Assembly: GCF_001466665.1 (NCBI RefSeq)
Contig: NZ_KQ758903.1
Coordinates: 1,609,684-1,673,683, forward strand
Direction: 5' to 3'
Length of the DNA: 64,000 bases
From: Dehalogenimonas alkenigignens
Lineage (GTDB): Bacteria > Chloroflexota > Dehalococcoidia > Dehalococcoidales > Dehalococcoidaceae
Below are positions 10,305-40,265 of this stretch, piece after piece; within the stretch, counting starts at the first letter, position 1; each line of letters begins with the position of its first letter. The position numbers were made by a program, and so were the translations under genes. The notes under the pieces are model-generated. The model saw nothing but the letters and a program-made list of their open reading frames with translations. It was not told the DNA's origin and ran no database searches.

Positions 10305-11252
10305 ATGATACTCAAGTCTATTTTAAAAATACTAGTTCACCAGCATAATTTTATGCTCATTTTTGCCATATTCGCTGGCCTCAATATGGCGCCGTTGGCT
10401 CAACTCACCGAAAGTTGGATCATCCCTTCACTCATCATTGCCATGTCTTTGTCTTTAAGTCATATCGATATAACTAAAGATCTGCTACTACCTAGAAAGA
10501 TACTCAAAGCGACCAGTATGGGTTTGTTGCTCAATTTTATTCTGTTAGGTGGCCTCAATATCATATTGGGTCACCTATTTACGGATGATAAGTATTTAAT
10601 TGCTGGTTTAGTCGTTTTAGCTGGTGCTCCCCCATCACTTTTAATCACACCTTGCACGTATAACATCAAGGGCGATGTATCCTTCTCATTTTTAAGTGCT
10701 ATTGCGTGTTATTTCTTATCCATCTTGATCTTACCGTTATTAATATATGTTTTTCTTGGTAGCACCTATTGGGGAGTAGATCTATTCAATGTAATATTTC
10801 AAATTGTCGTTTTACCGCTCATATTGTCACGTATTATCAGAAATATAAAACAATCTAGACTTATACAACCATATAACGGCCATATCATAAATTGGTGTAT
10901 TGCCATCGTTTGTTTTACCCTAGTAGGATTAAATCATGAATTACTTACTACGTACTCAAACAACCTTTTAATTGCGTTTATCGTTGCTGCGGCCACAATA
11001 TTTCTTCTTGGGGAATTGATTTATCGTACTAGTAGGTTATTAATAATTCCAACGCCAACTGCCATCAGTTATATGCTTCTTGGTTCAATGAAAAAATGGG
11101 CTGGAGCGAGTACCATCGCATACGTAATATTGGGCCCAAAAGCTTCCGTACCTGCGATTGCTGCTTTAATCGTAGGTTTTCTTTACTATTTATTCCTTTC
11201 GATACGTTTTCATAAGAACATTGGGATTGAAACCAAGATTTTCGAAAAATAG
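10305..11252 (+). CDS. BASS-family (bile acid:Na+ symporter-like) membrane transporter
   Basis: The 315-residue protein has about ten hydrophobic helices and little else. The segment LVVLAGAPPSLLITPC and the following KGDVSFSFLSAI resemble the crossover region of the bile acid:sodium symporter and ACR3 superfamily. The substrate is unknown. The gene is distinctly AT-rich compared with core genes, in line with recent transfer. It converges on rdhB with a strong bidirectional terminator between them, so it is not part of the dehalogenase operon. Confidence 0.7.
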   Translation: MILKSILKILVHQHNFMLIFAIFAGLNMAPLAQLTESWIIPSLIIAMSLSLSHIDITKDLLLPRKILKATSMGLLLNFILLGGLNIILGHLFTDDKYLIAGLVVLAGAPPSLLITPCTYNIKGDVSFSFLSAIACYFLSILILPLLIYVFLGSTYWGVDLFNVIFQIVVLPLILSRIIRNIKQSRLIQPYNGHIINWCIAIVCFTLVGLNHELLTTYSNNLLIAFIVAAATIFLLGELIYRTSRLLIIPTPTAISYMLLGSMKKWAGASTIAYVILGPKASVPAIAALIVGFLYYLFLSIRFHKNIGIETKIFEK

Positions 11253-11304: not shown

Positions 11305-11574
11305 TTATGCTCTTTTGTTTTGTAGCAATGAACGCACAGTCGGAACTGCGATTATGGCAGCCCCTGCTCCAAAAATAAGACCTACAATCCATGCCCCTTG
11401 GGCTCTTTCAACTGCCAAATCAAACGTAATCACAACTCCAATCGCTGTTAATGCTGCTGCTATTGCAACGAGAATGTGATGCCACCAAAATACATGATAT
11501 TTTCTATTTGCCAAAAGCATTAAACCTACCAGAACTGTAAAGACGATTCCCCCTAAAAATACTATCAGGCTCAT
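11305..11574 (-). CDS. rdhB: Reductive dehalogenase membrane anchor RdhB
   Basis: I chose the ATG at 11574 (MSLIVFLGG), which has AAAGGAAAG upstream; a longer frame reaching into rdhA is unlikely. The 89-residue protein has three hydrophobic helices, with the histidine-containing HVFWWHHILVAIAAA in the middle. RdhB proteins hold the exported RdhA at the outer face of the cytoplasmic membrane and may link it to the electron-donating complex. It lies 26 bases downstream of rdhA, in the usual rdhA-rdhB order. Confidence 0.88.
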   Translation of the reverse strand: MSLIVFLGGIVFTVLVGLMLLANRKYHVFWWHHILVAIAAALTAIGVVITFDLAVERAQGAWIVGLIFGAGAAIIAVPTVRSLLQNKRA

Positions 11575-11600
11575 ATACTTTCCTTTCAATTTTTGTTTAA

Positions 11601-13049
11601 CTAAGTTCGCCAGGGTGCCCAGTCCGCAGGTGTGTGCCAAGGTTGCCATTTGTCGGCATTTTCACCCCTAGGATACTTACCATAAGTAATATCTGCCACC
11701 TTGACCATCATCGGAGCAAGCATCGGTATACTAGCTAATACGCGACCAATATCGTGAGTTGGAGTGTTTGGTGAACTCCATGGACAGACACTGACACAGA
11801 ATTGACAGCCGAATGCCGTTCTTTGTTTCATACATTGAAACCCATCATATTCCCACTTATAGGCACCGTTAATCAAAGATGGTTCTGGATCTTTTCCGAT
11901 AACTTGTGATACGCAATTGGCTGAGCACCGACCGCATACTTTGCAAAATTCTCGCAAACCAAAATTTATCGGCTTGTCAGGGACGAGTGGTGCGTTCGTT
12001 GCAACAACTATAGTCCGTAATCCAGCACCCCAAGGTGCAATAGCTAGACCGGATCGCCCAGCCTCAGCTAACCCCGCTCTAATTGCAAAAGGAGTCTCAC
12101 AACAATCCTCATCTGCAATGATCATGCCATAGGCGTCGTAACCCAAGCCTCGGATAGTAGACTCCATGTATTTGGAATAGACATCTTGATCACTGCAAGT
12201 TGTTGCTGTTGATGCATTGGCAAGGGGGCCCACCCCAGCACGGTGGGTTGGTAAACTTGTGAAAATGCCCATTACAATTGCATATTTGTAGGGATAGGGC
12301 CAAGCCACAGGTCTGCCAGGATCTATCCAACCTTTGGGACGGTAACCACGTAAGGTGCCTGAAGTTGCAGCAACTTTGTAAAGAAACGGTTTCATTTTAT
12401 CGTCAATTGCACAGACACGAATTTGATCTACACCAAACCAGTGCGCCACACCTTTTAACTTCACAGTCATCTCTTCGGCAGAAATTTCAACCTTCGCCGC
12501 ATTAATTGGGAGTTTAATCCAATTCTTCTCTGCGGTGTTAACATGCCAATGATCCGAGGCTTGGACTATCGCTGTCCCGAAACGGTAGTCTTGCAATTCC
12601 TCTGGTGTCATGTTGGCTATCCATTCATTACGAGAGGTAACCGCCTCCTGCGCAATTTTACCCCATTCCCCGGACCAGTCTTGATTCGTTGCAGCATTAC
12701 CTACAGCCTGAAAACCGTCTTGTCGCCCGTCGGTAAAGGGTTGGTATTGACCGTTCACTTTTGTTGATCCCAAAGCAAGCTCATTAGGTACTATTTCAGT
12801 TGTACCCAGCGAATTCGCAGTGTCATCTATCTCTTTGACCCACCAAGGATATTCGGTTGGATACTGGGGCAAATAGGGATCTTTAAGACGGCTATTGAAG
12901 AGCATTCCTTCATTAGTTCCTGGCAGTTCTTTAATTGCAGCTACGGCAGCCAAGGAAGCGAAACCGATACCTGACCCACCCGTAATCTTCAAGAAGTCTC
13001 TACGACTATAACCTCTCTCTTTTTCATTCAATTTGTGTTTGACGAGCAT
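11601..13049 (-). CDS. rdhA: Reductive dehalogenase catalytic subunit RdhA
   Basis: A 482-residue corrinoid and iron-sulfur enzyme that removes halogens from organohalides as terminal respiratory reductase. The Tat signal RRDFLKITGGSGIGFASLAA is near residues 16-35. The first cluster motif is CKVCGRCSANC and the second is CMKQRTAFGCQFCVSVCPW, both near the C-terminus, with all eight cysteines present. The first motif lacks the usual proline after its last cysteine. It differs clearly from the other two intact RdhA in the window, so a different substrate is likely. Regulation may come from the two-component system at 15.8-18.8 kb. The substrate cannot be deduced. Confidence 0.95.
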   Translation of the reverse strand: MLVKHKLNEKERGYSRRDFLKITGGSGIGFASLAAVAAIKELPGTNEGMLFNSRLKDPYLPQYPTEYPWWVKEIDDTANSLGTTEIVPNELALGSTKVNGQYQPFTDGRQDGFQAVGNAATNQDWSGEWGKIAQEAVTSRNEWIANMTPEELQDYRFGTAIVQASDHWHVNTAEKNWIKLPINAAKVEISAEEMTVKLKGVAHWFGVDQIRVCAIDDKMKPFLYKVAATSGTLRGYRPKGWIDPGRPVAWPYPYKYAIVMGIFTSLPTHRAGVGPLANASTATTCSDQDVYSKYMESTIRGLGYDAYGMIIADEDCCETPFAIRAGLAEAGRSGLAIAPWGAGLRTIVVATNAPLVPDKPINFGLREFCKVCGRCSANCVSQVIGKDPEPSLINGAYKWEYDGFQCMKQRTAFGCQFCVSVCPWSSPNTPTHDIGRVLASIPMLAPMMVKVADITYGKYPRGENADKWQPWHTPADWAPWRT

Positions 13050-13260: not shown

Positions 13261-15054
13261 TCACCTCTCGCTTGTTTGACTTTGGTTAAATAAGTCTTCT
13301 ATTAAATACTTACCTATTTCGTTAATACATAGGGGTTGTGATTGACGGCTCCTGTCCCGATATACCGTAATTCCCTTCAGACCCCACTCCCAGGCCATCA
13401 TAAAGACCCGGGCGATATCTTCACGGCTGGCACTCTTGGGGAAGTTCACCGTCTTACTTACGGCATTATCGATATGCCGCTGGAACGCCGCCTGGATACG
13501 GACATGCCATTCAGGCGAAACACGGTGGGCGGTAACAAAGATTTTCCGAACGTCTTCCGGCACTTCTTTCCGGCTGTGCAGGTGGTTAGAGGTCACTAGT
13601 TGCTCTATAAGCTCACGGGAGTAAAAGCCGCGCTCCCGGGCGATTCGTTCAAAATAAGGGTTGATCTCGAGGAGATTTTCGCCATCGAGGATGTTTCTCA
13701 CAAAAACCGCGGCGAAGATAGGTTCGATGCCTGACGAGACCCCGGCGATAATGGAGATGGTTCCGGTCGGGGCGATGGTAGTGCAGGAGGCGTTCCTCAT
13801 GGGGAGGCCGCGTTTTTCATAGATACTACCGGACCAGGCGGGGAAGACCCCCCTTTCGAGAGCGAGGTTGTAAGAGGCTTCCTTGGCGCGTTCGGAGATA
13901 AACTCCATTATTTCCTCAGCCATTGTGATAGCTTTGGTCGAGTTGTAAGATACACCCAGCTGGATGAGCATATCGGCAAAGCCCATGACGCCAAGGCCGA
14001 TCTTCCTTGTTAGTCTGGTTGTGCGTTCGATCACCGGGACAGGGAACTTGTTGACGTCGATGACGTTATCCAAGAAGCGGACAGCGATCGGGATCAACCG
14101 CGCCAACTTATTAAAATCAATGGAGAGGGTGCCACCCTTCTCTTTAAGCATGGCGGCGAGATTGATGGAGCCGAGGTTGCAGGACTCGTAGGGGAGTAAA
14201 GCCTGCTCTCCACAGCCGGTGATTGTTTCTAACCGGCCCAAGCTGGGCGTGGGATTATCGCGGTTGATGCGGTCTATAAAGACGAGACCGGGGTCGCCGG
14301 TGCTCCAGGCCTGGTCGACGATACGCTTAAACACGGCAGAGGCATTGAGACTACCGACGGCTCGACCGGTGTTGGGGTCGATGAGGCAGTAATCGTCGCC
14401 GGATCTGACTTTATCCATGAAGTCATCGGTTACCGAAACAGAATTATAGAAATTGGTTAGAAGGCTCGGGTTGCTCTTGGCATTGATGAAATGGAGAATA
14501 TCGGGATGGGATACGCTCATAACAACCGAGTTGCAGCCACGCCTGACTCCGCCTTGGCGGATGTAGTCCGCAGCTCCGGCAAAGACGTGGATTAGAGCCA
14601 CCGGACCACCGGCGGCATCAAAGTGTTCACCGACGGCGCTGCCCGTGGGTCTAATATGCGACACGTTGAAGCCGATGCCCCCACCGCTTTTATGGATCAT
14701 TGCAGTATATTTCACAGCATCGAAGGTCTCTTCCAAGGAATCTGGCACCGGGAGCACGAAGCACGATGAAAGCTGCCCAGTCTCGGTGCCGGCGTTAAGA
14801 AGGGTGGGGGAGTTGGGCAGGAATTCAAGAGAAGCCATAGCCCGGTAGAATTCATCGGCGATGGTATCGACTTCAACTTCCGGGCGATATTGTTTCTCGG
14901 CTTGGGCGACAAATCGGGCGACGCGGCGGAACATTTGCTCCGGTGTCTCAGTGATCCGGCCATTGCGATCACGCCTAAGATAACGTTTCTCCAGCACTCG
15001 GAGAGCGTTGGGGGTGAGGGCTGATTCAATTTCTCTGGTTATTTCAAGGACCAT
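13261..15054 (-). CDS. nrdJ: Adenosylcobalamin-dependent (class II) ribonucleotide reductase, C-terminal tail apparently missing
   Basis: NrdJ reduces ribonucleotides using an adenosylcobalamin-generated radical. The 597-residue protein shows FLPNSPTLLNAG near residue 77, MIHKSGGGIGFNVSHIRP, the substrate-site cysteine block TGCGEQALLPYESCNLGSINL split across the active loop, and CTTIAPTGTISIIAGVSSGIEP. After GITVYRDRSRQSQPL the sequence turns AT-rich (CINEIGKYLIEDLF) and ends without the Cys-pair tail that normally recycles the active site. The ATG at 15054 has AAGGAGAG upstream and sits about 30 bases after a structured RNA leader. Its core-like composition inside an AT-rich island suggests separately acquired cargo. 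Confidence 0.9.
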   Translation of the reverse strand: MVLEITREIESALTPNALRVLEKRYLRRDRNGRITETPEQMFRRVARFVAQAEKQYRPEVEVDTIADEFYRAMASLEFLPNSPTLLNAGTETGQLSSCFVLPVPDSLEETFDAVKYTAMIHKSGGGIGFNVSHIRPTGSAVGEHFDAAGGPVALIHVFAGAADYIRQGGVRRGCNSVVMSVSHPDILHFINAKSNPSLLTNFYNSVSVTDDFMDKVRSGDDYCLIDPNTGRAVGSLNASAVFKRIVDQAWSTGDPGLVFIDRINRDNPTPSLGRLETITGCGEQALLPYESCNLGSINLAAMLKEKGGTLSIDFNKLARLIPIAVRFLDNVIDVNKFPVPVIERTTRLTRKIGLGVMGFADMLIQLGVSYNSTKAITMAEEIMEFISERAKEASYNLALERGVFPAWSGSIYEKRGLPMRNASCTTIAPTGTISIIAGVSSGIEPIFAAVFVRNILDGENLLEINPYFERIARERGFYSRELIEQLVTSNHLHSRKEVPEDVRKIFVTAHRVSPEWHVRIQAAFQRHIDNAVSKTVNFPKSASREDIARVFMMAWEWGLKGITVYRDRSRQSQPLCINEIGKYLIEDLFNQSQTSER

Positions 15055-15083: not shown

Positions 15084-15206
15084 GGCAAGCCCCACAGTGA
15101 ACCCCGATTACACCCAGGGAGCCCACGGGAGGGGTTTCACAGCCTGTTAGGCCGGGCTGGTCGCAACAACCCGGCGGCCCTGGTTTCCCCCACCATGAGG
15201 CTTGCC
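15084..15206 (-). ncRNA. Structured 5' leader of nrdJ (candidate cobalamin-related riboswitch, copy A)
   Basis: Read on the minus strand, GGCAAGC at the 5' end pairs with GCUUGCC at the 3' end, enclosing CAUGGUG with CACUGUG and CCAGGG with CCCUGG. A GC hairpin (GCCGGG with CCCGGC) and the conserved GUGAAACCCCUCCCGUGGGC lie in the centre. AACCCC can also pair with the later GGGGUU as a pseudoknot. A second copy at 33232-33356 keeps every stem, with compensatory changes. It ends about 30 bases before the nrdJ start, as expected of a translation-controlling riboswitch. It does not fit the standard cobalamin box as I know it. Confidence 0.75.
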
Positions 15207-15358
15207 AAAGAACGACTTCCTTGAAAGAGACGGCACCATCGCTACCCAACTGATGCATCAGAATTGTTGATAAGTTGCGCCCCAAAAGCGCAAACGACAA
15301 GAATGGCAGAAGTTATAATGAATTCGATCAATACACTGCCTCCTTTTATAACCACCTA

Positions 15359-15730
15359 TTGTCTAGACAACACAATATTACATAGTGAATGTATTCCCGA
15401 CGGTTACGTGCGATACCGGGATAGTAATTAGGGGTAATACATTAGTGTCTTAGAGTAAATTCGTTATACCCGAGTAGTATTGGTAATTGTGAATTGGAAT
15501 GCTGTCCTTTATGTAGTACCTCTTAATGAATTGAATAAGTTAAGCGGTTAGTAGTGGTAACCATGGGCACCTTGTGATATTGTATTACCAGGGTTAGCGG
15601 CATATTCCAGATGTTGATCGCCTACTCAATCTGGATATAAACGGAGAATGCGTTTCGTCCTCCGAGATTGTCTTTTACCTTTGTATCCGATGGAAATTAC
15701 CGATATTTACCTTATTGGTACATATTGGTA
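15359..15730. promoter_or_regulatory. Control region between nrdJ leader and sensory operon
   Basis: The 559 bases between the RNA leader and the gene at 15766 hold no coding frame. A perfect 12-bp palindrome TTGTCTAGACAA lies at 15359-15370. Nearer the sensory genes, TTACC at 15697 and 15707 and ATTGGTA at 15714 and 15724 are repeated at exact 10-bp spacing, one helical turn, as for OmpR-type regulator sites. These are candidates for autoregulation by the response regulator at 18111-18803. Confidence 0.5.
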
Positions 15731-15765
15731 CTGGGTTAATATCGTTAAGGTTGTAGAATGAATGT

Positions 15766-16350
15766 ATGCTAGAGATTGCTCAGTCTAATACTCCATACAA
15801 TAGACAATTCCAAGCCCTTCTTGAAGAGGTCCACTCGTATGATCGCACTGAGTTAATGTCGTTATTAGATAAGGCTCTGTCTGCATGGCAAAACGATGAG
15901 ATGTTGCCATCTCAACTATTTTCAATAATGAATTCGATTGATAAAAGTGTAGATAAAGTTATCCAAACGTATCGCAATGCACAGCCAGTATTTATATGTT
16001 CTTTCTCGCCGATCATCACAATGGGGGCCTTGCTGAGTAAAGTATTTTTAAAAGTAAGACTGTTTGATGTTAGGCTGATTAATATCACCTCTCCAACCGA
16101 TCTAGGCTTGTTGATCAAGACAATCTCCTCAAACGCCCCATTAGCTGTCATATTTAGTTTTTCGCTGTTTCATTTTATCGAAATGGTTAGTGCTGGCATA
16201 AAAGACTTACTATCACTTAAGACCACTTATTACGCCGGTGGAGTGGCATTTAACCTAAAACCGGAAATGAAGCACCTACTACCGGGAGTGGTGTTCCCAT
16301 TAGATTTATTCAACTTAGTTGATTTATTGGAGATTCAAGTCAATGAATAA
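15766..16350 (+). CDS. B12-binding-fold-like sensory protein (partner of the histidine kinase)
   Basis: The 194-residue protein has a helical N-terminal half (residues 1-75) and a C-terminal Rossmann-like half with FDVRLINITSPTDLGLLIK, APLAVIFSFSLFHF and TTYYAGGVAFN. This order resembles the helical cap plus cobalamin-binding domain of CarH-type sensors and methyltransferase corrinoid proteins. The DxHxxG cobalt-ligand motif is not visible, so cobalamin binding, if any, would be base-on or indirect. Its last eight bases overlap the start of the DUF1638-kinase gene, indicating joint expression. Family placement is by pattern and only moderately certain. Confidence 0.55.
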   Translation: MLEIAQSNTPYNRQFQALLEEVHSYDRTELMSLLDKALSAWQNDEMLPSQLFSIMNSIDKSVDKVIQTYRNAQPVFICSFSPIITMGALLSKVFLKVRLFDVRLINITSPTDLGLLIKTISSNAPLAVIFSFSLFHFIEMVSAGIKDLLSLKTTYYAGGVAFNLKPEMKHLLPGVVFPLDLFNLVDLLEIQVNE

Positions 16351-18136
16351 TAAAATCGGTATCATATCTTGTTCATTCATACTTAAGCATGTTAAATCTG
16401 TGTTACTGAATAACGATGGATTCAAAATATACCCTTTAGTACCAGCCTGTCTGTTCAAGGTATCCCCAACTTTACTCCGACATGTCTTCGATCAAGCAGC
16501 TATCGAAAATCGGGTCTCGCTTGTGGCTTATGGATATTGCCACAAGGATTTACCTGCAATATTTGATGAATATAAAGATCATGTTGTTAAAATCCCAGGC
16601 GATAATTGTTGGGAAATGCTATTAGGTATTAATACTTTCCGAGAATATGTCAATGAGGGAAGTTGGCTTCTAAGGACTGCAGTTTGTAACGAATGGCGTG
16701 GCGAAACCTTTATTGCTTACGGATCTCTTAACCCAAGCTTCAACCTAGTAAAAGGCTGTAACACACAAAAAATTACAGCTTGTAGGTTTGAACCTGAGAA
16801 ACCACGTGATTCTGAAGTTTACTCTTTCGCACAAGCCTTTGATACTCCTCCTCAAGTTGTTGAGTGTAACTTAACGCATTTTAAAGCTTTGATTCAGCAG
16901 GGAATCAATGATGCGCATAAATTAGCTCTTGACAGTTTTGTCGTAAAAACATCTCCCAAATCACAGAAAATAGACAAAACTATGCCAAGTGAAATATGCG
17001 ATATTGGATTCCAATATGATATCTATTCTAAATATATTACTTTTATTAGTCCAAAAGTTACCCAACTATTGGGTTTTACCCCTTCGGAATTTATGAAATA
17101 CTTTATCAATGATCCTGAACACTATTATTACTTCGATAGTGATACTCAAACACAACTTATCTCGCAAAGATACACATTCGTTTCTAATTGTATCTCCAAA
17201 GGCATGCAGTATCCACTATCGATTGAATACAGAGCAAAAAGAAAAGATGGAGAAATTATATGGATCAAAGAACATATATATCCCCGGTATAATGATGATG
17301 GCAGTGTCAGTAACCGTTTTGAAGGAAAGCTAGAAGATATTTCACACTGGAAAAGCGTGGAACTTAATTTAAAACACCTGTATGAACAGGAGGCTGCAGC
17401 AAAGTCAGCGTTACAGAATGAAATTGATAAGCGTGTAGAATTCACTCGGGCTTTGGTCCATGAATTGAAAACCCCTCTAACTCCAATATTACTGGCAAGC
17501 GATACACTTGCCAATAATATTTGCGAGAAACAATGGCTTCCGTTAATTGAGTGTATCAATAAAGGAGCCACCGATTTGAGTGGCAGGATTGATGAAATCC
17601 TTGATTTAGCTCGAGGTGAAGTCGGTATATTGAGGGTAGATTGTTCGCCTTTTAGTATAAATGATTTGATCTCAGAAATAGTGCACTCTTTTGCACTGCG
17701 GGCTAAGAATAATAACCAGCGTCTATTACAAAGACTAGATAAAACTATTCCCTTTGCAATGGCAGATAGCAAACGAATAAAACAGGTCTTGATGAATCTT
17801 ATCGATAATGCCATCAAATATTCTGGTGAACGAACAACTATCACCTTGAGTACCAGTATGTTGAATGAAAAGTTGGCTGTAATGGTACAAGATGATGGAC
17901 CAGGCATTCCTGAGGAAAGACAACCGGATCTTTTTATTCCATATAAATGTACAAATAAACTCAGTGGTCTCGGAATAGGACTCGCACTTTCTAAAAAGAT
18001 TGTCGAGCTCCATGAGGGAAAGATTTGGGTGGTTAATAATCAAAGCGGTGGCTGTGCATTTTATTTTACCCTTCCAGTCATGGTTACACCCAATGCTCAA
18101 AAGGCTACGTGTGAAAGTATTAATTATCGAGGATGA
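16343..18136 (+). CDS. DUF1638-PAS hybrid sensor histidine kinase
   Basis: I chose the ATG at 16343 (MNNKIGIISC), which overlaps the upstream stop. Residues 1-210 read as DUF1638 (LVAYGYCHKDL, then VVKIPGDNCWEMLLG), a family often encoded near corrinoid methyltransferases. A PAS domain follows at about 225-335 (YITFISPKVTQLLGFTPSEF), then a dimerisation domain with phospho-acceptor His373 in LVHELKTPLTPIL. The ATPase domain has Asn489 in NLIDNAIKYS and DDGPGIP, both intact. No membrane segments are visible, so it is a cytoplasmic sensor. It pairs with the response regulator overlapping its 3' end and is a plausible controller of the nearby rdhAB. Confidence 0.88.
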   Translation: MNNKIGIISCSFILKHVKSVLLNNDGFKIYPLVPACLFKVSPTLLRHVFDQAAIENRVSLVAYGYCHKDLPAIFDEYKDHVVKIPGDNCWEMLLGINTFREYVNEGSWLLRTAVCNEWRGETFIAYGSLNPSFNLVKGCNTQKITACRFEPEKPRDSEVYSFAQAFDTPPQVVECNLTHFKALIQQGINDAHKLALDSFVVKTSPKSQKIDKTMPSEICDIGFQYDIYSKYITFISPKVTQLLGFTPSEFMKYFINDPEHYYYFDSDTQTQLISQRYTFVSNCISKGMQYPLSIEYRAKRKDGEIIWIKEHIYPRYNDDGSVSNRFEGKLEDISHWKSVELNLKHLYEQEAAAKSALQNEIDKRVEFTRALVHELKTPLTPILLASDTLANNICEKQWLPLIECINKGATDLSGRIDEILDLARGEVGILRVDCSPFSINDLISEIVHSFALRAKNNNQRLLQRLDKTIPFAMADSKRIKQVLMNLIDNAIKYSGERTTITLSTSMLNEKLAVMVQDDGPGIPEERQPDLFIPYKCTNKLSGLGIGLALSKKIVELHEGKIWVVNNQSGGCAFYFTLPVMVTPNAQKATCESINYRG

Positions 18137-18803
18137 CCAGCAAATTATCGATACGGTCTCACTAGTATTAAGGTTAGTTTGGCCGGATGTCGCTTTATTT
18201 TCAACCCCTTATGGTAAAAAGGGGATTGAATTGGTTGAGAGACATATGCCTGATTCAATTCTTCTTGATCTTGGTCTCCCAGATATCGACGGATATGAGG
18301 TATTAAAACAAATACGTGCCTTTACGAGTATCCCGGTAATTGTAATTACAGTGCGAGATGAAGAGATATCATTGATTAAAGCTTTCGAGATGAATGCGGA
18401 TGACTATCTCATCAAACCTTTTAGACAAATGGAATTGATAGCAAGACTAAAATCTGCGATGAAAAAACGTTCTTTTTTTGAAGAGGATCTCACGATATCA
18501 TGCAACAATATCCACTATGGTTCTTCCATCAATGAGGTTTACATTGGGAATATCAAGCGGGAACTGACCTCTACGGAAGGTAGGTTGTTGTACCACCTGC
18601 TAAAAAAGGCGGGAAAGATCATAACCAAGGTTGAGCTTGCTGAAATGATTTGGGGTGAATTCATTCCAGGTTCCTCAGAAAATATTAAAAATTATATATG
18701 CCGTTTACGGAAAAAAATTGAAGATGATCCCAATAACCCCAAAATTATTGTCAGTCGCAGGGGCATAGGATACACTATCCCTCTATCACGTAATTTCACC
18801 TAA
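18111..18803 (+). CDS. OmpR/PhoB-family response regulator
   Basis: I chose the GTG at 18111 (VKVLIIEDDQQ), which follows AAAAGG at good spacing and overlaps the kinase stop by 26 bases. Earlier ATG codons add residues that do not belong to a receiver domain. The receiver has the acidic pair EDD, the phospho-acceptor in SILLDLGLPDIDG, and KPF. The C-terminal winged helix (residues 130-230) ends with the PhoB-type IKNYICRLRKKIEDDP and RRGIGYTI. Cognate to the DUF1638 kinase. Targets may include its own promoter (10-bp repeats at 15697-15730) and the adjacent dehalogenase genes. Confidence 0.92.
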   Translation: MKVLIIEDDQQIIDTVSLVLRLVWPDVALFSTPYGKKGIELVERHMPDSILLDLGLPDIDGYEVLKQIRAFTSIPVIVITVRDEEISLIKAFEMNADDYLIKPFRQMELIARLKSAMKKRSFFEEDLTISCNNIHYGSSINEVYIGNIKRELTSTEGRLLYHLLKKAGKIITKVELAEMIWGEFIPGSSENIKNYICRLRKKIEDDPNNPKIIVSRRGIGYTIPLSRNFT

Positions 18804-19566: not shown

Positions 19567-19876
19567 TAAATCACCTCACACGTGCATTTTTAAACACAAT
19601 TCCATCCCGAGGTATGTCCGAGGGCAGTAACTCAAGTCACAGACTGACGTTTCATTAAACCCGTTCATCCCCTCTCACATTTAGCCACCCCAATCGGTTC
19701 CAGATGTCTAACTCTCCGATAAGCCCAGGATTTAATAACAGTCCCAAATGCTGTTAGCCTGTTACACTAAATAACCATCTAGTTGGTGTTATAAGTTCAA
19801 GTGAAAGATCAACCTCGATCTATTTATCCACAAGGGTATTGACAATATAGGATTCTTCCTATATTATATAGAACGT

Positions 19877-19990
19877 ATGATGAATTCCCCCACATTGGGA
19901 TTTATCGAAAGAGTCGCGAACGCACTTGGGGTTGAAATCAAAATCAGGATACAACCTGGCCATACTGATGACATATATGGAGGTTCCTAG
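19877..19990 (+). pseudogene. C-terminal remnant of an XRE-type regulator
   Basis: The 37-residue frame reads SPTLGFIERVANALGVEIKI, which is the typical last helix of XRE-family helix-turn-helix proteins, where the recognition helices would come before it. The upstream two-thirds of the domain are absent, so this is a leftover fragment rather than a working repressor. It lies 24 bases before the broken rdhA, and its parent may have regulated that operon. Confidence 0.55.
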
Positions 19991-20013: not shown

Positions 20014-21390
20014 ATGGATAAATATCATTCTCCGATCAGTAACAAGGATCTCATGCAGAGCCTTTCTTCGTCCCAGAAAGGCCAAGGAGAGGCTAACGAA
20101 TTTCGCGATTTAGATGAGATGTTGAATGCTTCGGAGTTAAATAAGCCATGGTTTGTTAAAGAAACTGACGTCCCTACTGTAGAAATTGATTTGAAACTAC
20201 ACAGCCCTTACCCTCAGTCAGCCAACGTATATGATATTAATGCGTTTTTCAGATATCTAGATAATCCCAAAATGGAAGCTGAGATCATCAGCAATAGCAA
20301 ACTCCGTGAAAGAGATGGTATTGTACGCCAATTGCCAGGGAACTCTTTACGTGATATCTCTCTCGTTAAGACCCTAATCTCCGATTATTATTACGACCTG
20401 CCTTCTCCAGTCGGAGGATTTCGTTCAATCCCGTCTCCAAAAGATTATGGGGTACCACGTTGGGAAGGCACACCGGAAGATAATGCCAAGATGATCCGAA
20501 CGGTGGCGAAAGCCACCGGCTGTTCTTACGTAGGGTTTCTCGACCTAAGTGACACCAGATTAGGTCCTGTGACAAACTTATTTTACTCCGAAATGGCTGT
20601 AAAATTTGAGGACGGAATCGAAGATTATAAGCTTCAAGGACTGAATACAATCTGCTACCCCCGTAACTGTAGATATTTGATCGTCCTTGTTCCACAAATG
20701 AAGAGTATCTATAAGAGATTCGGTAACTTCACTACACTGGCAACGGCTGGGCAAGATTCAACGGACAAGGTATTACATTTGGCAAAAATGATGAATTTCT
20801 TGCATGGAATTGGGTACCTGGGATTCGAAATAAGATCACCCCTTCCTCCTCTAGAAATATGAACCGGCATTGGAGAATATAACCGAACCCACGGACCACC
20901 TATCACACCGGCTTTTGGCAACGAATGTTTGTCTGGAACGTTTAGTATTCTCACGGACTTGCCTTTAGCGCCGAGCAAACCGATTGATATGGGGATCCTG
21001 AAATACTGTGAAAATTGCCTGAGATGCGCAGTCGCCTGCCCATCTGGCGCGATTGACAAAAACAAATTACCGAGTTGGGAAATTAACACAGGACCTTGGA
21101 ACGCATCCAATGATCACAAAGGATACAAGAATAATTCTTTTAAATGCATGGAATTCATCGTCAACCATATTGCAACTGGATTCCGGCCAAGATTGATGGG
21201 GCATTGCATGAACTGCGTGTATTCTTGTCCATTTACAAAAGCCAAAATGCTTGATAACCGCCTCAAAGCGTTGCCTAACACCGTACCGTTGAGGATAGAT
21301 CGAGAGAATACCCGACATTTTTGGGAAATTGACATGCCGGAATTTGGAATGATGTCGATCCTTAATCCACCGGAAATAGATAAACCATAA
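20014..21390 (+). pseudogene. rdhA: rdhA interrupted by one in-frame TGA, with degenerate Tat signal
   Basis: Two frames in the same register are separated only by the TGA at 20860-20862. Together they give a roughly 458-codon RdhA very similar to the intact one at 21611. The stop falls where the intact paralogue has leucine (GILSGIGEYNR versus EI-stop-TGIGEYNR). Both cluster motifs are present downstream (CENCLRCAVACP, and CMEF followed by GHCMNCVYSCP). The N-terminus reads SNKDLMQSL instead of SRRDFMKSI, so the twin arginine is lost, and the hydrophobic stretch is replaced by polar residues. The simplest reading is a decaying copy. The rest of the frame is intact over 1.3 kb, which suggests recent loss. 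Confidence 0.85.
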
Positions 21391-21610: not shown

Positions 21611-23065
21611 ATGAAATCGCATTCCACAATGAGTCGCCGAGATTTTATGAAATCTATAGGTTTAGGTTCTGCAGCCATAGCTAGCATGGGTGCAACCGCT
21701 CCACTTTTCCATGATCTAGACGAAATGACGGGCATAGGTGCTGCCGAAACTTTTAACTCCACTACATCCATGCAAAAACGTCCTTGGTGGGTTAAAGAGG
21801 TTGACATTCCTACAGTAGAAATCGACTTGAAACTGCGCACCCCTTACGCCGGGCCTAATCCGTGGTCTGGAGTATTAGATTCCATATATGTTACTAAAGA
21901 AGAGACTGCTGCCATCCTGGCTTCTCAACAGAACAATGCTATTGAAGGAGCTAAAAACAACCGGCCAGGTTTTACATTGCGTGATCAAATTGGAGCTTGG
22001 GCTTCACTGGATAGAGGACAAACAGGATATCTAAAATATCCACCTGAAGGTTTTCGAACAATAAAAGTTACTCATGAAACCTTAGGTGTACCGAAGTGGG
22101 AAGGCTCCGAAACGGAAAACGCATTCATGATTCGAACTTTCCTGCGGCAATTTGGTGCAGGGGCAATTGGCTATGCAAGAGTGGATGATAACAGCGTCGG
22201 ACCGCGTAAACCCCTTTTTAATACTCATGTGAGATTGGAAAACAATTCAGATTATAAGTATGATACTAATGGAACATTTGTCATGCCCGAGAAGTGCAAA
22301 TATGCCATCATAATTTATGATAGAAGTCCCCGAGATCCCAATAACTATCGTCGTACTGTCAATAGTCCTCAAGCCTTTGTATCAAACATGGAGAAATGCG
22401 AGTATGGTCATAAGCTCCAAAACTTCCTTTGGGGTTTAGGCTACCAGTCCTATTGGTTTGAAGATGAAACAACTAGCAAATTCACAGGGACTCCGACGAA
22501 TGTTTGGGGTATCCTCTCAGGCATAGGCGAATACAACCGAATTCACAATGCGGTCTCGCAACCCGAAGGTGAGACCGGTAATTTTGCCAGTATTCTCTTC
22601 ACAGATTTGCCTCTACCTACTACTAAACCGATAGACTTTGGAGCTTTAGAATTCTGTAAAACTTGTGGGATATGTGCCGACGTTTGCCCAGCCGGAGCAA
22701 TTCCTACAGTAGAAGAGTATAGAGAGCCAACTTGGGATCGAGCAACTGGTCCCTGGAGTGCTTCCAATGACCATAAAGGATATCCTAATAAATCCATTGA
22801 ATGCGTAAAGTGGTATTTTTCTAATGCAATTACAGGCTTCGCTCCTGCCTCTCGCCCGGTTGGAGTGTGTCGTCGATGTGCCAGTCACTGTGTCTTCAGC
22901 AAAGAGCATAAAGCCTGGATTCATGAAGTGGTTAAGGGTGTAGTCTCCACTACCTCCGTAATGAACCCCTTCTTTACAAAAATGGATAGGCTATCAGGTT
23001 ACAGTGACATCATCTCAGATGAAGGCAGGGCTGAATATTGGCACCAGTACCTACCCGCTGTTTAG
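21611..23065 (+). CDS. rdhA: Reductive dehalogenase catalytic subunit RdhA (intact)
   Basis: 484 residues with a full Tat signal (SRRDFMKSIGLGSAAIASMG, residues 9-28) followed by FHDLDEM, a common RdhA N-terminal feature. Cluster one is CKTCGICADVCPAGAI. Cluster two is Cys in ECVKWYF followed by CRRCASHC; the proline after the final cysteine is absent. AGAGGTAATATG provides a ribosome-binding site. The product should be exported folded with its corrinoid and anchored by the RdhB encoded 18 bases downstream. The close relation to the broken copy just upstream points to a tandem duplication in this module. Substrate unknown. Confidence 0.95.
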   Translation: MKSHSTMSRRDFMKSIGLGSAAIASMGATAPLFHDLDEMTGIGAAETFNSTTSMQKRPWWVKEVDIPTVEIDLKLRTPYAGPNPWSGVLDSIYVTKEETAAILASQQNNAIEGAKNNRPGFTLRDQIGAWASLDRGQTGYLKYPPEGFRTIKVTHETLGVPKWEGSETENAFMIRTFLRQFGAGAIGYARVDDNSVGPRKPLFNTHVRLENNSDYKYDTNGTFVMPEKCKYAIIIYDRSPRDPNNYRRTVNSPQAFVSNMEKCEYGHKLQNFLWGLGYQSYWFEDETTSKFTGTPTNVWGILSGIGEYNRIHNAVSQPEGETGNFASILFTDLPLPTTKPIDFGALEFCKTCGICADVCPAGAIPTVEEYREPTWDRATGPWSASNDHKGYPNKSIECVKWYFSNAITGFAPASRPVGVCRRCASHCVFSKEHKAWIHEVVKGVVSTTSVMNPFFTKMDRLSGYSDIISDEGRAEYWHQYLPAV

Positions 23066-23083
23066 AAAGAGAGAGAATTAAAT

Positions 23084-23311
23084 ATGAAATTAAATATTGA
23101 CTTCAAATGGTATCAATGGCTTTTTGGGGTAATTTCTCTGATTTTGGCATCTTTCTTGACTCATGAAATATTTGCTACCCTAGCAGAATCTCAGCCTGGC
23201 ACTGTCAAGGTACTTTCCTTGCTTATAGGAATCCCATTGATTATCTTCCTGTATCTGACCTTTGGTTTAAGGTCAGCCCTAAAAAAATCCAAATCTAGTG
23301 TGACGGATTAG
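23084..23311 (+). CDS. rdhB: Reductive dehalogenase membrane anchor RdhB
   Basis: A 75-residue protein with two or three hydrophobic helices (WLFGVISLILASFLTHEIF and VLSLLIGIPLIIFLYLTFGL) and a lysine-rich tail. It lies 18 bases downstream of rdhA, the usual place and size for RdhB, though slightly short. It should anchor the upstream RdhA on the outside of the cytoplasmic membrane. A GAGAGAG sequence precedes the ATG, and a strong terminator follows the stop, closing the operon. Confidence 0.85.
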   Translation: MKLNIDFKWYQWLFGVISLILASFLTHEIFATLAESQPGTVKVLSLLIGIPLIIFLYLTFGLRSALKKSKSSVTD

Positions 23312-30731: not shown

Positions 30732-31829
30732 ATGGAGGGGAGTGAGGATTTGGTCCGCGAATACACCCGAACTGAATCTCTAGGCGGTGTTTTGGGTACC
30801 GGACTAAACCCTATTGATGGACTGGGCATATACGAAGAAAATCCTAATCCTGTAATCCGGGCTTCCAAGGATGGGGTTATCCTTTATTCCAATCCGGGAA
30901 GCCTCGAATTGTGCCGAAAGTGGGATTGCGCTTTCGGAGGACTAGTGCCCAAACCTTATAAACGTCTCATCGAAGACGCGATTCAGACGATGTCCACTCG
31001 ATGGTCCCACGAGAAGGTTGACAATATTACCTATAGACTGCAAATTGTCCCGGTCCCTGGCCATGATTATGTTAATATTTTCGGATTTGCCACAGAAAGC
31101 CCCGATGTATCAGACGGAAACCGGCGGCAACGCCAGTCAAACCTCACTCGAGCCGCCGTCCATGAGTTAAAAAATCCCCTGACTCCGATTCTGGCGGCGA
31201 GCGAGATGCTGGTCAACCGTCTACCCGATGGGACTCCGGCCCGACTCGCAAAACAGATCAACCTCGGAGCCATAGAGTTGAATTCGCGGATCGGTGAGTT
31301 GTTCGAGTTGATACGCGGCGAAATGGGAACGCTGGTACTTGATTACCAGCAGGTAGAACTCAGCGAATTATGCCAGCAGGTAGTTGACTCTCTTCAGCCC
31401 GAGGCTGCAGACAAGGGAATAAACCTCCACGTCGAGTCGACGGACCGCAGTTATGAGGTGACCGGCGACCGGCGACGGCTGCGTGAAAGCATGGGACATC
31501 TTGTGAAATGCGCTATCAAACGAAGCAGCCTTGGAGCGGAGGTTAGGTTGACGCTTGGATTGTTAAACCAGGCAATGATAGTTCGTATTATCACTACCTG
31601 CCTTAACTTTCCTGACCGACTATCTGCGGTTATCTCAGCGCCTTATTCCGTATTGACGCTGGATCGGGATCATTTCAGTACTCTCGGGTTGGAATTAACC
31701 CTGTCCAAACTGCTTATCGAATTACATGGCGGCGATGTGAAGGTTACTGATAATTCCAGAGGCTGCTGCTTTGAGATCACTCTTCCAGTTGAGCCAGCTA
31801 TATCCGCCAACTCGGAGCTTCAAACTTGA
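30732..31829 (+). CDS. PAS-type histidine kinase with degenerate ATP-binding domain
   Basis: 365 residues without membrane helices. A PAS-like domain occupies residues 30-130 (YEENPNPVIRASKDGVILYSN). The dimerisation helix keeps the phospho-acceptor His144 in AVHELKNPLTPILAASEML, closely resembling the kinase at 16343. In the ATPase domain the N-box reads HLVKCAIKRS with Cys260 in place of the essential asparagine, and the DxGxG segment is replaced by IITTCLNFPD. It is therefore unlikely to bind ATP normally and may be a phosphatase, a phosphotransfer scaffold or a decaying kinase. Its stop overlaps the response regulator start. Confidence 0.85.
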   Translation: MEGSEDLVREYTRTESLGGVLGTGLNPIDGLGIYEENPNPVIRASKDGVILYSNPGSLELCRKWDCAFGGLVPKPYKRLIEDAIQTMSTRWSHEKVDNITYRLQIVPVPGHDYVNIFGFATESPDVSDGNRRQRQSNLTRAAVHELKNPLTPILAASEMLVNRLPDGTPARLAKQINLGAIELNSRIGELFELIRGEMGTLVLDYQQVELSELCQQVVDSLQPEAADKGINLHVESTDRSYEVTGDRRRLRESMGHLVKCAIKRSSLGAEVRLTLGLLNQAMIVRIITTCLNFPDRLSAVISAPYSVLTLDRDHFSTLGLELTLSKLLIELHGGDVKVTDNSRGCCFEITLPVEPAISANSELQT

Positions 31830-32500
31830 AAATACTGATAATCGAAGATGACCCAAATGTGCTTGAACTAGTAGAGCTTACCTTCGAACTCGGCTGGCCT
31901 GACATCAAACTCATTAAAGCGGTAACCGGGGAACAAGGTATGAATGCGCTTGAGAGCGAACCCCCGGATGCGGTCATTTTGGATATTGGTTTGCCCGATA
32001 CCAATGGTTTTGAAATTGTTAAAGCCATAAGGCTGTTCTCTGACGTTCCCATTCTCATGTTGACAGTCCGAGTCGACGAACGCGACGTCGTGAAGGCTCT
32101 GACGCTTGGGGCTGATGACTATCTGACCAAGCCATTCCGGCAGATGGAACTTCTGGCAAGGATCAAGGCGATAACCCGTCGAAGCCACCAGGGGGATCAG
32201 GACCTTAAAGTCAGCCATGGACTGTGGCGTTTCGGGAAGACATTAACTGAACTATATCACGGCCAGCAGGTGTTCCATCTGACCCCTATACAGGGACAGA
32301 TAATGCAGACCCTGATAAAACAAGCCGGCCAGTTTGTCAGCGCTGAAACATTGGCGGTAAAAATCTGGGGCGAACACCACGCCGCTACCGCAGACGATCT
32401 CAGAGTCCATATTCATCACATTCGAAAAAAGCTTGATCCAAGCGACTCAAAATTGATCGTCAACAAGCCCGGTCAGGGTTATATGTTTTCGCCTGATTAA
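31826..32500 (+). CDS. OmpR/PhoB-family response regulator
   Basis: 224 residues starting at a TTG that overlaps the kinase stop. The receiver domain has IIEDDP, the phospho-acceptor in AVILDIGLPDTNG, and LTKPFRQME. The C-terminal winged helix ends DDLRVHIHHIRKKLDPSDS and PGQGYMF. It is the paralogue of the regulator at 18111 (KPFRQMELIARIK is shared almost exactly). Four TTAAC repeats at 10-11 bp spacing lie 156 bases downstream of its stop and are a likely binding site ahead of the radical-SAM locus. Confidence 0.92.
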   Translation: MKILIIEDDPNVLELVELTFELGWPDIKLIKAVTGEQGMNALESEPPDAVILDIGLPDTNGFEIVKAIRLFSDVPILMLTVRVDERDVVKALTLGADDYLTKPFRQMELLARIKAITRRSHQGDQDLKVSHGLWRFGKTLTELYHGQQVFHLTPIQGQIMQTLIKQAGQFVSAETLAVKIWGEHHAATADDLRVHIHHIRKKLDPSDSKLIVNKPGQGYMFSPD

Positions 32501-34215: not shown

Positions 34216-35718
34216 ATGAGGATCCTTCTTGTTATTCCATCCCGGTCTTACGGCACTGTTCCCGGATATACTAAGTTCCCTGATGAAATGCTGTCTATCG
34301 GGGGTATGCTTGAGAGCCGCGGCCATCAGGTCAAACTTGTCGACTGCAACCTCGATAAAAAGCGCCCGGTGGATTTTCTCGATTTTTGTCCCCAGTTGGT
34401 AGGTTTTTGCGTCGCCACAGGCCCAAATATCACCGATGCATTAACTCAATCATCTGAATTTAAAAACCTGTTCCCCGGGGTCAAGATCGCATGGGGCTTC
34501 CGTCACGCCAGCGCCTACCCTGCGGAAGTGCTACGGGAATCTTGCGCCGATTATGCCGTAATAGGACCTGGTGAATTCACCATCGCCGAACTTGCGGATC
34601 ATCTGGAGAAAAACTCCACCGATTACTCTTCCATAAAAGGCTTGGCCTTTAAAAACAGCGACGGCATGATTATCATTAATGAACCACGACCCTTTATGGC
34701 CGATTTGGATAGCCTGCCGGATCCAGCCTGGCATCTTATTGATGTAAATAGATATTCCGATGTGACCTTAAATACCTCACGCGGCTGCCCTTTCAAATGC
34801 ACCATCTGCTCTGATCCCACATTCTACGGCGGCAACATGTGCGACCTTTCGGCAGAACGGATCGTTGCCCAAATGGAGCTGCTTCACAAAAAGTACGGCA
34901 TCCAGCATATCTATTTTTCCGGTGAACGTTTTGTTATTAACCGTGAAAGGCTGCATCAGTTTTGCCGGTTGGTGATCCATAAGAAATGGAAAATCACTTG
35001 GAATGCGCCGGTATCAGGCGCTCTTGATGAAGAAACCGTCCGGCTGATGAAAAAAGCCGGTTGCACCTCCGTGCTCTTTGAGATCGAGACCGGCAGCCAG
35101 AGAATGCTATCCTTCATCAACAAAGGTACTGTCTCAGAGATGGAATCCACCTTCTGGCTGCTGGCGAAGCATCATATCATTCCCACCCTTTTCATGATGT
35201 ACGGGTACCCTACCGAGTCGGTTGAAGATTTCAACGAGAGCCTGACGTTCATGAAGCGCCTCGACTCCCCGCCATATCTGTATATGAAATTTGTGCCTTA
35301 CCCGGGTACCGTCCTTTTTGATTACTGCCTCGAACACGGGCTATTGAAGACCCCCCGGACACTTCAAGAGTGGGCTGATTTCCCCATTCAGTGCGCCAAC
35401 GAAATAAATTTATCCCAGGTACCTCAACAGAAGATGGATGAAGCGATGTCGGATTTCAGGCGCAGCTATGCTACACGCCGGGTCCGTTTCATGCTCCGTC
35501 ATAATCCCGCCTTTTTCTTAGACGCTGTAAAGCGGCCGCGCGAATTTTTCCGGTCGGTCTGGGATCTCGGGAAATATTACATCGATATCATGCTTGATCC
35601 GACCAACGGTTCTCAGTCGTGGCTGTCCAAACTTATAAAGAAGAATAGACACAGCGGCGGGTCTGAAAGTCCCCGCCTGCAAACCAAACAAGTTACCCGA
35701 GGGGGAGAGGTATCCTGA
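34216..35718 (+). CDS. B12-binding domain radical SAM protein 1
   Basis: 500 residues: an N-terminal cobalamin-binding fold (MRILLVIPSRSYG, then LVGFCVATGPNITDAL and YAVIGPGEFTIAELADHL, residues 1-150), then the radical SAM motif in TSRGCPFKCTICSD near residue 196. A TIM-barrel part follows with ETGSQRMLSFINKGT. The DxHxxG cobalt ligand is not visible, as in many class B members. Enzymes of this class methylate or rearrange unactivated carbons. The gene overlaps the next by one base. Its nearest relative in the window is the degenerate copy at 40266, with which it shares RVRFMLRHNP. Confidence 0.88.
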   Translation: MRILLVIPSRSYGTVPGYTKFPDEMLSIGGMLESRGHQVKLVDCNLDKKRPVDFLDFCPQLVGFCVATGPNITDALTQSSEFKNLFPGVKIAWGFRHASAYPAEVLRESCADYAVIGPGEFTIAELADHLEKNSTDYSSIKGLAFKNSDGMIIINEPRPFMADLDSLPDPAWHLIDVNRYSDVTLNTSRGCPFKCTICSDPTFYGGNMCDLSAERIVAQMELLHKKYGIQHIYFSGERFVINRERLHQFCRLVIHKKWKITWNAPVSGALDEETVRLMKKAGCTSVLFEIETGSQRMLSFINKGTVSEMESTFWLLAKHHIIPTLFMMYGYPTESVEDFNESLTFMKRLDSPPYLYMKFVPYPGTVLFDYCLEHGLLKTPRTLQEWADFPIQCANEINLSQVPQQKMDEAMSDFRRSYATRRVRFMLRHNPAFFLDAVKRPREFFRSVWDLGKYYIDIMLDPTNGSQSWLSKLIKKNRHSGGSESPRLQTKQVTRGGEVS

Positions 35719-37196
35719 TGAAAGTCCTGCTTGTAACATCAGCGGATAAAGCATACCGCCATTATTATCAGGCATATACCAACCTGCCTAACGGCCTGTT
35801 GTATATCGCCTCATTCCTCGAACGCCACGGCCACCAGGTGCAGATTTATGATGGGTACGTCGACGACCGTGAACCGAAGGACTTCGTCGATTTCAATCCT
35901 GATGTCATAGGTTTTTCAGTCATCACGGGACCAAACCTGGCGGGATCACTGATCCAATCGCGTGAATTTAAATCATTGTTGCCGGAAACAAAGATTGTAT
36001 GGGGTAACGTCCACCCATCGATCATGACAACCCAAACAATGCTTGAGGATTGCGTTGACTTTGTTGCCATCGGTGCCGGTGAATACACCATGCTCGAACT
36101 CCTGGAACATCTTAGAATCGGCACTCCGGCGCTCGATGAGATTAAAGGACTAGCTTTCCGGCGCGACGATGAAATAGTCGTCAACCAGAAACGTGAATTT
36201 ATCCGGAACCTCGTGGACATGCCTGACCCGGCCTGGCATCTGGTGGACGTAAAGAAATACTCAGGTATAGGCTTAAACACCTCCCGCGGCTGTGCTCACC
36301 GCTGCGCTTTTTGCTACAACAAATCCTATAACAAAGATTATATCGGCTATTTGCCGGCAGAGCGCATCATCGAACAGATCCAGCACGTCCAGAGAGAATA
36401 CGGGGCGAAACATGTCCGCTTCAATGAAGACAACTTCACATTTAACCGTAAACGTCTACGCGAGTTCTGCCGATTGATTATCGACCGAAAAATAAAAATC
36501 AGCTGGTCGTGCGACTCTCGCGCCGACCTGTCAGAATCGGATATCGCCCTTATGAAACGGGCGGGCTGTACTGCCGTCGGACTGGGATTGGAACACGGCA
36601 GTCAGCGAATGCTTGATTTTATCCAGAAGGACATCACCGTTCCCGAGATGGAGAGAACGTTTTGGACATTGGTCAAATACAAGATCCGAACATCAGTGTA
36701 TATCATGTACGGCTTTCCAACCGAAACGCTCGAGGATTTTCAGGCCACCCATGAAATGCTTAAACGGCTTGACAATCCCTATTACATGTATAACCGTTTC
36801 GTTCCTTTTCCGGGTAGCGCTTTATTTGAACACTGTGTTAATCATGGTCTCGTAAATCTGCCGGAAAAAATCGAGGATTGGCCTCAATATTTGATGCGCT
36901 TCTCCAATCAGGTGAATATTTCAGAAGTGCCGGATGATATGATGGCGGAAGCAGCCGCCCGTTGGCGCGTTTCCTACGCGGCGCAGCGGTTCCGTTTCAC
37001 CCTCAAACATAATCCATCTTATTTTTGGACAGCCATCACCGACCCGAAGAAATTTTTCCGTGAGCTCTGGGAGCTTGCCAAGTTCCACATCCAGGTGAAC
37101 GGTTACTACAAGGTTGTTAAAAAGACTTTAGCGGCACCCGAGGCTCCCAAATCAGCAAACGAATATGCCAAATCGGCGGCGGCCGCCGCCCGTTGA
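35718..37196 (+). CDS. B12-binding domain radical SAM protein 2
   Basis: 492 residues with the same architecture: MKVLLVTSADKAYRH and IGFSVITGPNLAGSL in the cobalamin-fold part, FVAIGAGEYTMLELLEHL, and the cluster motif in TSRGCAHRCAFCYNKSYN near residue 195. GLEHGSQRMLDFIQKD follows in the barrel. The C-terminal section (QRFRFTLKHNPSYFW) closely matches protein 3, so these two form a paralogous pair. GGGGGAGAGG precedes the ATG. The product of the pathway is not deducible from sequence; a lipid or natural-product modification is typical for the class. Confidence 0.88.
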   Translation: MKVLLVTSADKAYRHYYQAYTNLPNGLLYIASFLERHGHQVQIYDGYVDDREPKDFVDFNPDVIGFSVITGPNLAGSLIQSREFKSLLPETKIVWGNVHPSIMTTQTMLEDCVDFVAIGAGEYTMLELLEHLRIGTPALDEIKGLAFRRDDEIVVNQKREFIRNLVDMPDPAWHLVDVKKYSGIGLNTSRGCAHRCAFCYNKSYNKDYIGYLPAERIIEQIQHVQREYGAKHVRFNEDNFTFNRKRLREFCRLIIDRKIKISWSCDSRADLSESDIALMKRAGCTAVGLGLEHGSQRMLDFIQKDITVPEMERTFWTLVKYKIRTSVYIMYGFPTETLEDFQATHEMLKRLDNPYYMYNRFVPFPGSALFEHCVNHGLVNLPEKIEDWPQYLMRFSNQVNISEVPDDMMAEAAARWRVSYAAQRFRFTLKHNPSYFWTAITDPKKFFRELWELAKFHIQVNGYYKVVKKTLAAPEAPKSANEYAKSAAAAAR

Positions 37197-37229
37197 GAAT
37201 GCTTGCCAGTTATAGAAAGGCGAAATGAG

Positions 37230-38720: not shown

Positions 38721-38777
38721 CGCTGAACCCCGGTCGCCGCTTCTAAATTTGACAGACAGTGAAACCGTAAATGGATA

Positions 38778-38814
38778 CCCGCGGGCGAATTCAAGGGAAG
38801 CGTTCGCCCGCGGG
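38778..38814 (+). terminator. GC-rich hairpin after B12-radical SAM 3
   Basis: CCCGCGGGCGAA at 38778 pairs perfectly over 12 bases with TTCGCCCGCGGG at 38803-38814. It lacks a T-run, so it is a possible attenuating or stabilising hairpin rather than a clear terminator. Confidence 0.5.
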
Positions 38815-38918
38815 GAACAACCGCTTCGATAAAGCTGGTCCCGGTGATATCATATTCTTTATGTAAGGTTATTCGAGGCTTGAACATGTTTACCCTATGC
38901 CTCAGTTGGAGCCAATAA

Positions 38919-40226: not shown

Positions 40227-40265
40227 GGTAATGCTTATTTTAAGCAGGTATTCTGCGATCAACCG

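Follow-up and report, generated by a model that had tools for sequence, protein, structure and literature searches.

In a 64,000-nucleotide stretch (the window) of the 1.85-Mb Dehalogenimonas alkenigignens genome, positions 1,609,684 to 1,673,683, we identified a cassette of three overlapping genes that forms one operon and encodes a small protein (P1), a DUF1638-PAS-histidine kinase and an OmpR-type response regulator. The anatomy of the cassette, the B12-binding fold predicted for P1 and the linkage to dehalogenase (rdhA) genes can be stated with high confidence. More tentatively, we propose that the cassette is a cytoplasmic sensor for the neighbouring rdh operon, derived from a pair of corrinoid-handling proteins; the involvement of a cobamide is likewise plausible and just as tentative. 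The cassette addresses the question of how Dehalococcoides and Dehalogenimonas choose among their many dehalogenases, and offers a concrete sensor candidate, with a corrinoid-linked domain and a B12-fold partner, for deciding when a dehalogenase is made. The features are as follows.

10305–11252, plus strand: SBF-like transporter gene; loci L046–L049 also have one next to the cassette
11305–11649, minus strand: rdhB, membrane anchor of the following rdhA (open reading frame as listed; the true start is probably further in)
11601–13049, minus strand: rdhA, most likely the cognate dehalogenase; in other genomes its orthologues lie with the cassette
13261–15054, minus strand: nrdJ, adenosylcobalamin-dependent ribonucleotide reductase, linked to the cassette in several copies
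15715–15731, plus strand: direct repeat TTGGTAC-N3-TTGGTAC upstream of P1, candidate regulator site
15766–16350, plus strand: P1, ATG start, 194 amino acids; predicted helical cap at residues about 1–70 and Rossmann domain at residues 74–194
16343–18136, plus strand: sensor histidine kinase DUF1638-PAS_3-HisKA-HATPase_c, ATG start, 597 amino acids
16346–16891, plus strand: DUF1638 sensor domain with four conserved cysteines, 9, 35, 65 and 88 (numbered from codon 2)
17039–17308, plus strand: PAS_3 domain (Pfam)
17432–18079, plus strand: HisKA and HATPase_c kinase core (Pfam)
18111–18803, plus strand: OmpR/PhoB-type response regulator (receiver and Trans_reg_C), GTG start inferred from the sequence
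21611–23065: dcpA, a further rdhA (dcpAB, 21611–23311)

The P1 and kinase genes overlap by 8 bp. The regulator most plausibly starts at the GTG at 18111 (MKVLIIEDD...), and its overlap with the kinase gene is then 26 bp. Because the same genes recur in the same order beside rdhA in related genomes, the set is not a chance arrangement, and its overlapping members are inherited together. According to a comparative study, the dcpA genomic island of D. alkenigignens IP3-3 spans 1,612,218–1,635,409 behind ssrA (PMC13390414); the tmRNA gene at 2069–2421 of the window matches this position, and a 228-bp dcpB-sized open reading frame (23084–23311) directly behind the rdhA at 21611–23065 agrees with the description given there.

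The initial annotation had proposed that the gene upstream of the kinase encodes a cobalamin-binding fold lacking the cobalt histidine, and both parts of this proposal held. P1 alone had no Pfam match and found nothing significant in a PDB sequence search, so a family profile and a fold prediction were needed. The model of P1 (AlphaFold with 14 relatives, pLDDT 87.7) comprised helices followed by a Rossmann-type domain. The best 50 rows of a Foldseek search with it were all cobalamin proteins, including photocobilin, AerR, MetH, CarH and MttC, and VIA-align superposed the predicted model on photocobilin with Z 15.0 over 181 residues and on a Desulfitobacterium cobalamin protein with Z 14.2 over 173 residues. 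The profile of the P1 family matched CarH-type B12 domains in a profile-profile comparison (E 7e-14, 162 columns). A P1 profile search also reached other proteins of Chloroflexota, at E 2e-9 to 7e-4, that have an ExH motif and in many cases are MerR-type; all four that were scanned carried the Pfam domains B12-binding and B12-binding_2. PF02310 (B12-binding) was matched by 4 of the 14 P1 family members, below the cut-off (best E 3e-5). P1 is thus homologous to B12-binding domains (PF02310/PF02607), yet outside the family by the curated cut-off, and profile and predicted fold together identify it as a B12-binding-fold protein of CarH/AerR ancestry. A response-regulator receiver fold was also tried for P1 and rejected, as it accounts for the Rossmann half only (about 112 residues) and not for the cap.

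In the second gene, hmmscan placed DUF1638 (PF07796) at 26.6 bits (E 6e-6), just below the cut-off of 27, and a genome search at 29.2 bits, above it; the DUF1638 of a relative at locus L055 scored 40.2 bits. Matches to PAS_3, HisKA and HATPase_c were clear, and the fusion of DUF1638 to a PAS-histidine kinase noticed earlier was found in the 16343–18136 product. According to PMC13390414, Dehalogenimonas kinases of this kind are without transmembrane helices. The DUF1638 model reached pLDDT 93. A fold search with it gave no confident solved relative, LacI-type proteins being found at Z 9.7 only, and a PDB sequence search with the domain returned no relative. Cysteines 9, 65 and 88 were invariant in all 24 aligned DUF1638 sequences, and position 35 was cysteine in all 14 kinase-type sequences and histidine in nearly all stand-alone ones.

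That DUF1638 occurs elsewhere near corrinoid methyltransferases, as stated in the initial annotation, was confirmed: in the examined set, stand-alone DUF1638 genes of other Dehalococcoidia mostly lie between genes for an MttB-family methyltransferase and a RACo corrinoid activase. In another Dehalococcoidia genome an MttB-family methyltransferase is itself fused to DUF1638 (L031, 262–1989). Among papers that mention DUF1638, one deals with methionine synthesis and another with glycine betaine demethylation. In Phaeobacter, a DUF1638 gene comes after one for a B12-binding protein, and B12-dependent methionine synthesis requires it along with a RamA-like activase (PMC5764234); in Ruegeria, the abundance of the DUF1638 protein is raised on glycine betaine (PMC12478193). 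The company of DUF1638 with MttB and RACo elsewhere, together with the B12 fold of P1, suggests that a corrinoid-handling pair has been rewired as the input of an rdh two-component system. The DUF1638 domain of the kinase shares the Pfam family and the invariant cysteines with the stand-alone proteins of MttB and RACo/RamA operons; it differs from them in its fusion to a PAS histidine kinase and in having Cys35 in place of their usual histidine.

In the mechanism that we propose, P1 would dock on the DUF1638 domain of the kinase, just as corrinoid proteins and stand-alone DUF1638 probably come together when corrinoids are reactivated. Kinase activity would be set by the state of this complex (cobamide bound or not, redox or ligation), with an organohalide perhaps altering that state, and the PAS domain would relay the signal. 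Once phosphorylated, the regulator might bind the direct repeats ahead of the operon that encodes it and turn on the neighbouring rdhAB, here with rdhA 11601–13049, and possibly nrdJ too. The TTGGTAC repeats lie 10 bp apart where the intergenic region upstream of P1 is best conserved, and TGKTAC words were enriched upstream of P1 homologues; upstream of rdhA genes no enrichment of these words was found. The word was picked after looking and serves as a lead only.

To examine the pocket of P1, 14 family members were aligned to CarH-type domains. The axial histidine was present in none of the 14, its place being taken by isoleucine, leucine, valine or glutamine (Ile84 in P1); no member had a cobalt-ligating histidine in a DxHxxG or ExH context, and the upper-ligand histidine and the EH pair were absent from the family. 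The cap aromatic was kept as Trp or Tyr in 14/14 (Trp41 in P1), the tail-binding position was Ser or Thr in every member (Ser131), and GG was kept throughout (Gly158-Gly159); the AerR counterparts are Trp94, Thr189 and Gly220 (PMC9144470). The CarH/AerR signature, both axial histidines plus Wx9EH, was therefore not found in the P1 family, which keeps an aromatic at the W position alone. Since the cap aromatic, Ser/Thr and GG are retained while the histidine is gone, the cobalt ligand has been lost selectively.

As the axial histidine is missing from all members, P1 may bind nothing. It could be an apo adaptor that uses the B12 fold as a scaffold, with organohalide or redox state read by the PAS domain or the cysteine set of DUF1638 and no cobamide taking part, an alternative that we consider rather unlikely but the strongest of those weighed. 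The loss of both histidine ligands agrees with it, the four conserved cysteines might bind a metal or serve as a redox switch, and the kinase does have a PAS domain. The retained cap aromatic, Ser/Thr and GG, however, are more than a bare scaffold requires. Moreover, a cobamide is held without a protein histidine by some B12-dependent radical SAM enzymes and by RdhA, so the loss of the histidine in P1 does not exclude binding. A bolder form of the cobamide-based sensor, improbable in our estimate, has P1, alone or with DUF1638, holding a cobamide whose cobalt has no ligand from the protein beneath it, as in RdhA, with the organohalide reacting with or binding that cobalt; if true, the cell would sense its substrate through a silent imitation of the active site of the dehalogenase.

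Of the 11 Dehalococcoides and Dehalogenimonas genomes examined, 9 carried P1 together with a kinase-type DUF1638, at 17 places in all and with the two adjacent at each; the remaining two genomes, both Dehalogenimonas, were without the pair, and no other among 400 Chloroflexota genomes had a comparable match to both proteins. The fusion, taken at first for an unusual one, is therefore real but not a one-off, being recurrent in Dehalococcoidaceae. An rdhA gene lay within 3 kb at every place. The initial annotation had named a lack of conserved rdh linkage, and of structural similarity between P1 and B12 domains, as refuting its reading, and on both points the outcome was in its favour. Under random placement such proximity has a probability below about 10^-14, calculated for 16 places whose copies are homologous and not independent. 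Contig scans returned no relative and also missed known Dehalogenimonas copies, and so say little about other phyla; a plasmid collection gave no match. A P1 + DUF1638 pair also occurs elsewhere in the same genome (L055, 7562–8754, at about 20.6–21.8 kb), with an rdhA and a CRP/FNR gene as neighbours. In this copy and its twin L060 in genome G200, the kinase part is lost next to an insertion element and P1 and DUF1638 are kept; in one Dehalococcoides copy (L052) the kinase is split.

The presence of P1 near rdhA in all copies would also suit a factor for cobamide delivery or RdhA maturation whose place in the kinase operon is incidental, and RdhA does need base-off cobamide. We regard this as quite unlikely, because P1 lies immediately ahead of the DUF1638-kinase gene in every case, often with an overlap, and the numerous other rdhA genes in these genomes are without P1. 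In addition, P1 distances track those of DUF1638 and the kinase (r 0.95) more closely than those of RdhA (0.79); across P1, DUF1638, kinase and regulator the distance-matrix correlations were 0.92–0.98, and between these and RdhA 0.66–0.79, values that are partly due to shared descent. Binding of haem or another tetrapyrrole by P1 is very improbable: the SCHIC domain of AppA, a haem-binding B12 fold (PMC9144470), resembles P1 in being part of a regulator with altered cofactor ligand residues, but the 14 P1 members have no conserved histidine at the shifted SCHIC position or anywhere in residues 74–97.

The sensor proposed here belongs to a known class. Two-component systems linked to rdh genes, RdhS/RdhP, are described in Dehalococcoides and Dehalogenimonas (PMC13390414, PMC5574268), and the cassette, with a soluble histidine kinase and a response regulator adjoining rdhAB, has the gene arrangement that defines them; the system of this locus is drawn as regulatory genes in PMC13390414. 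In the available text of both papers, neither a DUF1638 sensor nor a B12-fold partner gene is described for RdhS/RdhP, and our literature search found no description of a DUF1638 sensor domain or a histidine-less B12-fold partner beside rdh genes. P1 resembles CarH and AerR in its cap and Rossmann fold, cap Trp, tail Ser/Thr with GG and GG-x-x-F motif, but differs in having neither lower nor upper histidine, no EH pair and no DNA-binding domain, its partner being a kinase. Which cue the rdh-linked kinases sense is a question posed by the 2026 comparative study (PMC13390414); the sensor module is expressible, and its response to cobamide, organohalide and redox state can be probed.

The corrinoid-dependent rdhAB that the initial annotation had noted next to the cassette (11305–13049) is distinct from dcpAB (21611–23311). 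RdhA 11601–13049 scored 131.7 bits against an NCBIfam cut-off of 160.35 and is an atypical dehalogenase by this measure. Its orthologues in genomes G200, G178 and G189 (100, 90 and 78%) each lie beside the cassette, as do 45% relatives in three Dehalococcoides genomes. The orthologues of dcpA (92–95%) are found in G113 and G135, which have no cassette, and in G178, where a unit made up of a small HTH gene, an rdhA and dcpA stands about 950 kb away from the cassette. Synteny thus does not support dcpA as the cognate dehalogenase. The window is 99.97% identical to G200 up to 19,881 and 95.8% identical beyond, with the junction at 19871–19881, which indicates that two modules of different history meet between cassette and dcpA; the dcpA module joined the cassette by recombination near 19.88 kb. 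Synteny and junction together point to the left rdhA (11601–13049) as the most likely partner, so that the two-component system beside dcpA in two strains, this one and G200, probably belongs to another dehalogenase. Control of dcpA by the cassette after the joining is possible. The rdhA upstream of dcpA is split into two open reading frames here (20014–21390) and is an intact 458-amino-acid frame in G200 (L045, 12040–13416).

Among the other neighbours, the B12-dependent nrdJ adjoins the cassette in the window, as the initial annotation had it, but is linked to it in some copies only. No riboswitch or other Rfam family was found upstream of nrdJ; a GC-rich 330-bp leader on that side (15084–15406), which shows 82% conservation with G178, may form a structured RNA. 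Not all rdh-linked kinases carry DUF1638 and P1, as those at 30732–32500 of the window and at L094 and L099 are without them; the former is a second soluble kinase paired with an OmpR-type regulator, upstream of paralogous radical SAM genes (34216–41654). An SBF-like transporter gene recurs alongside the cassette or its rdhA (the window, L046, L047, L048, L049 and L098).
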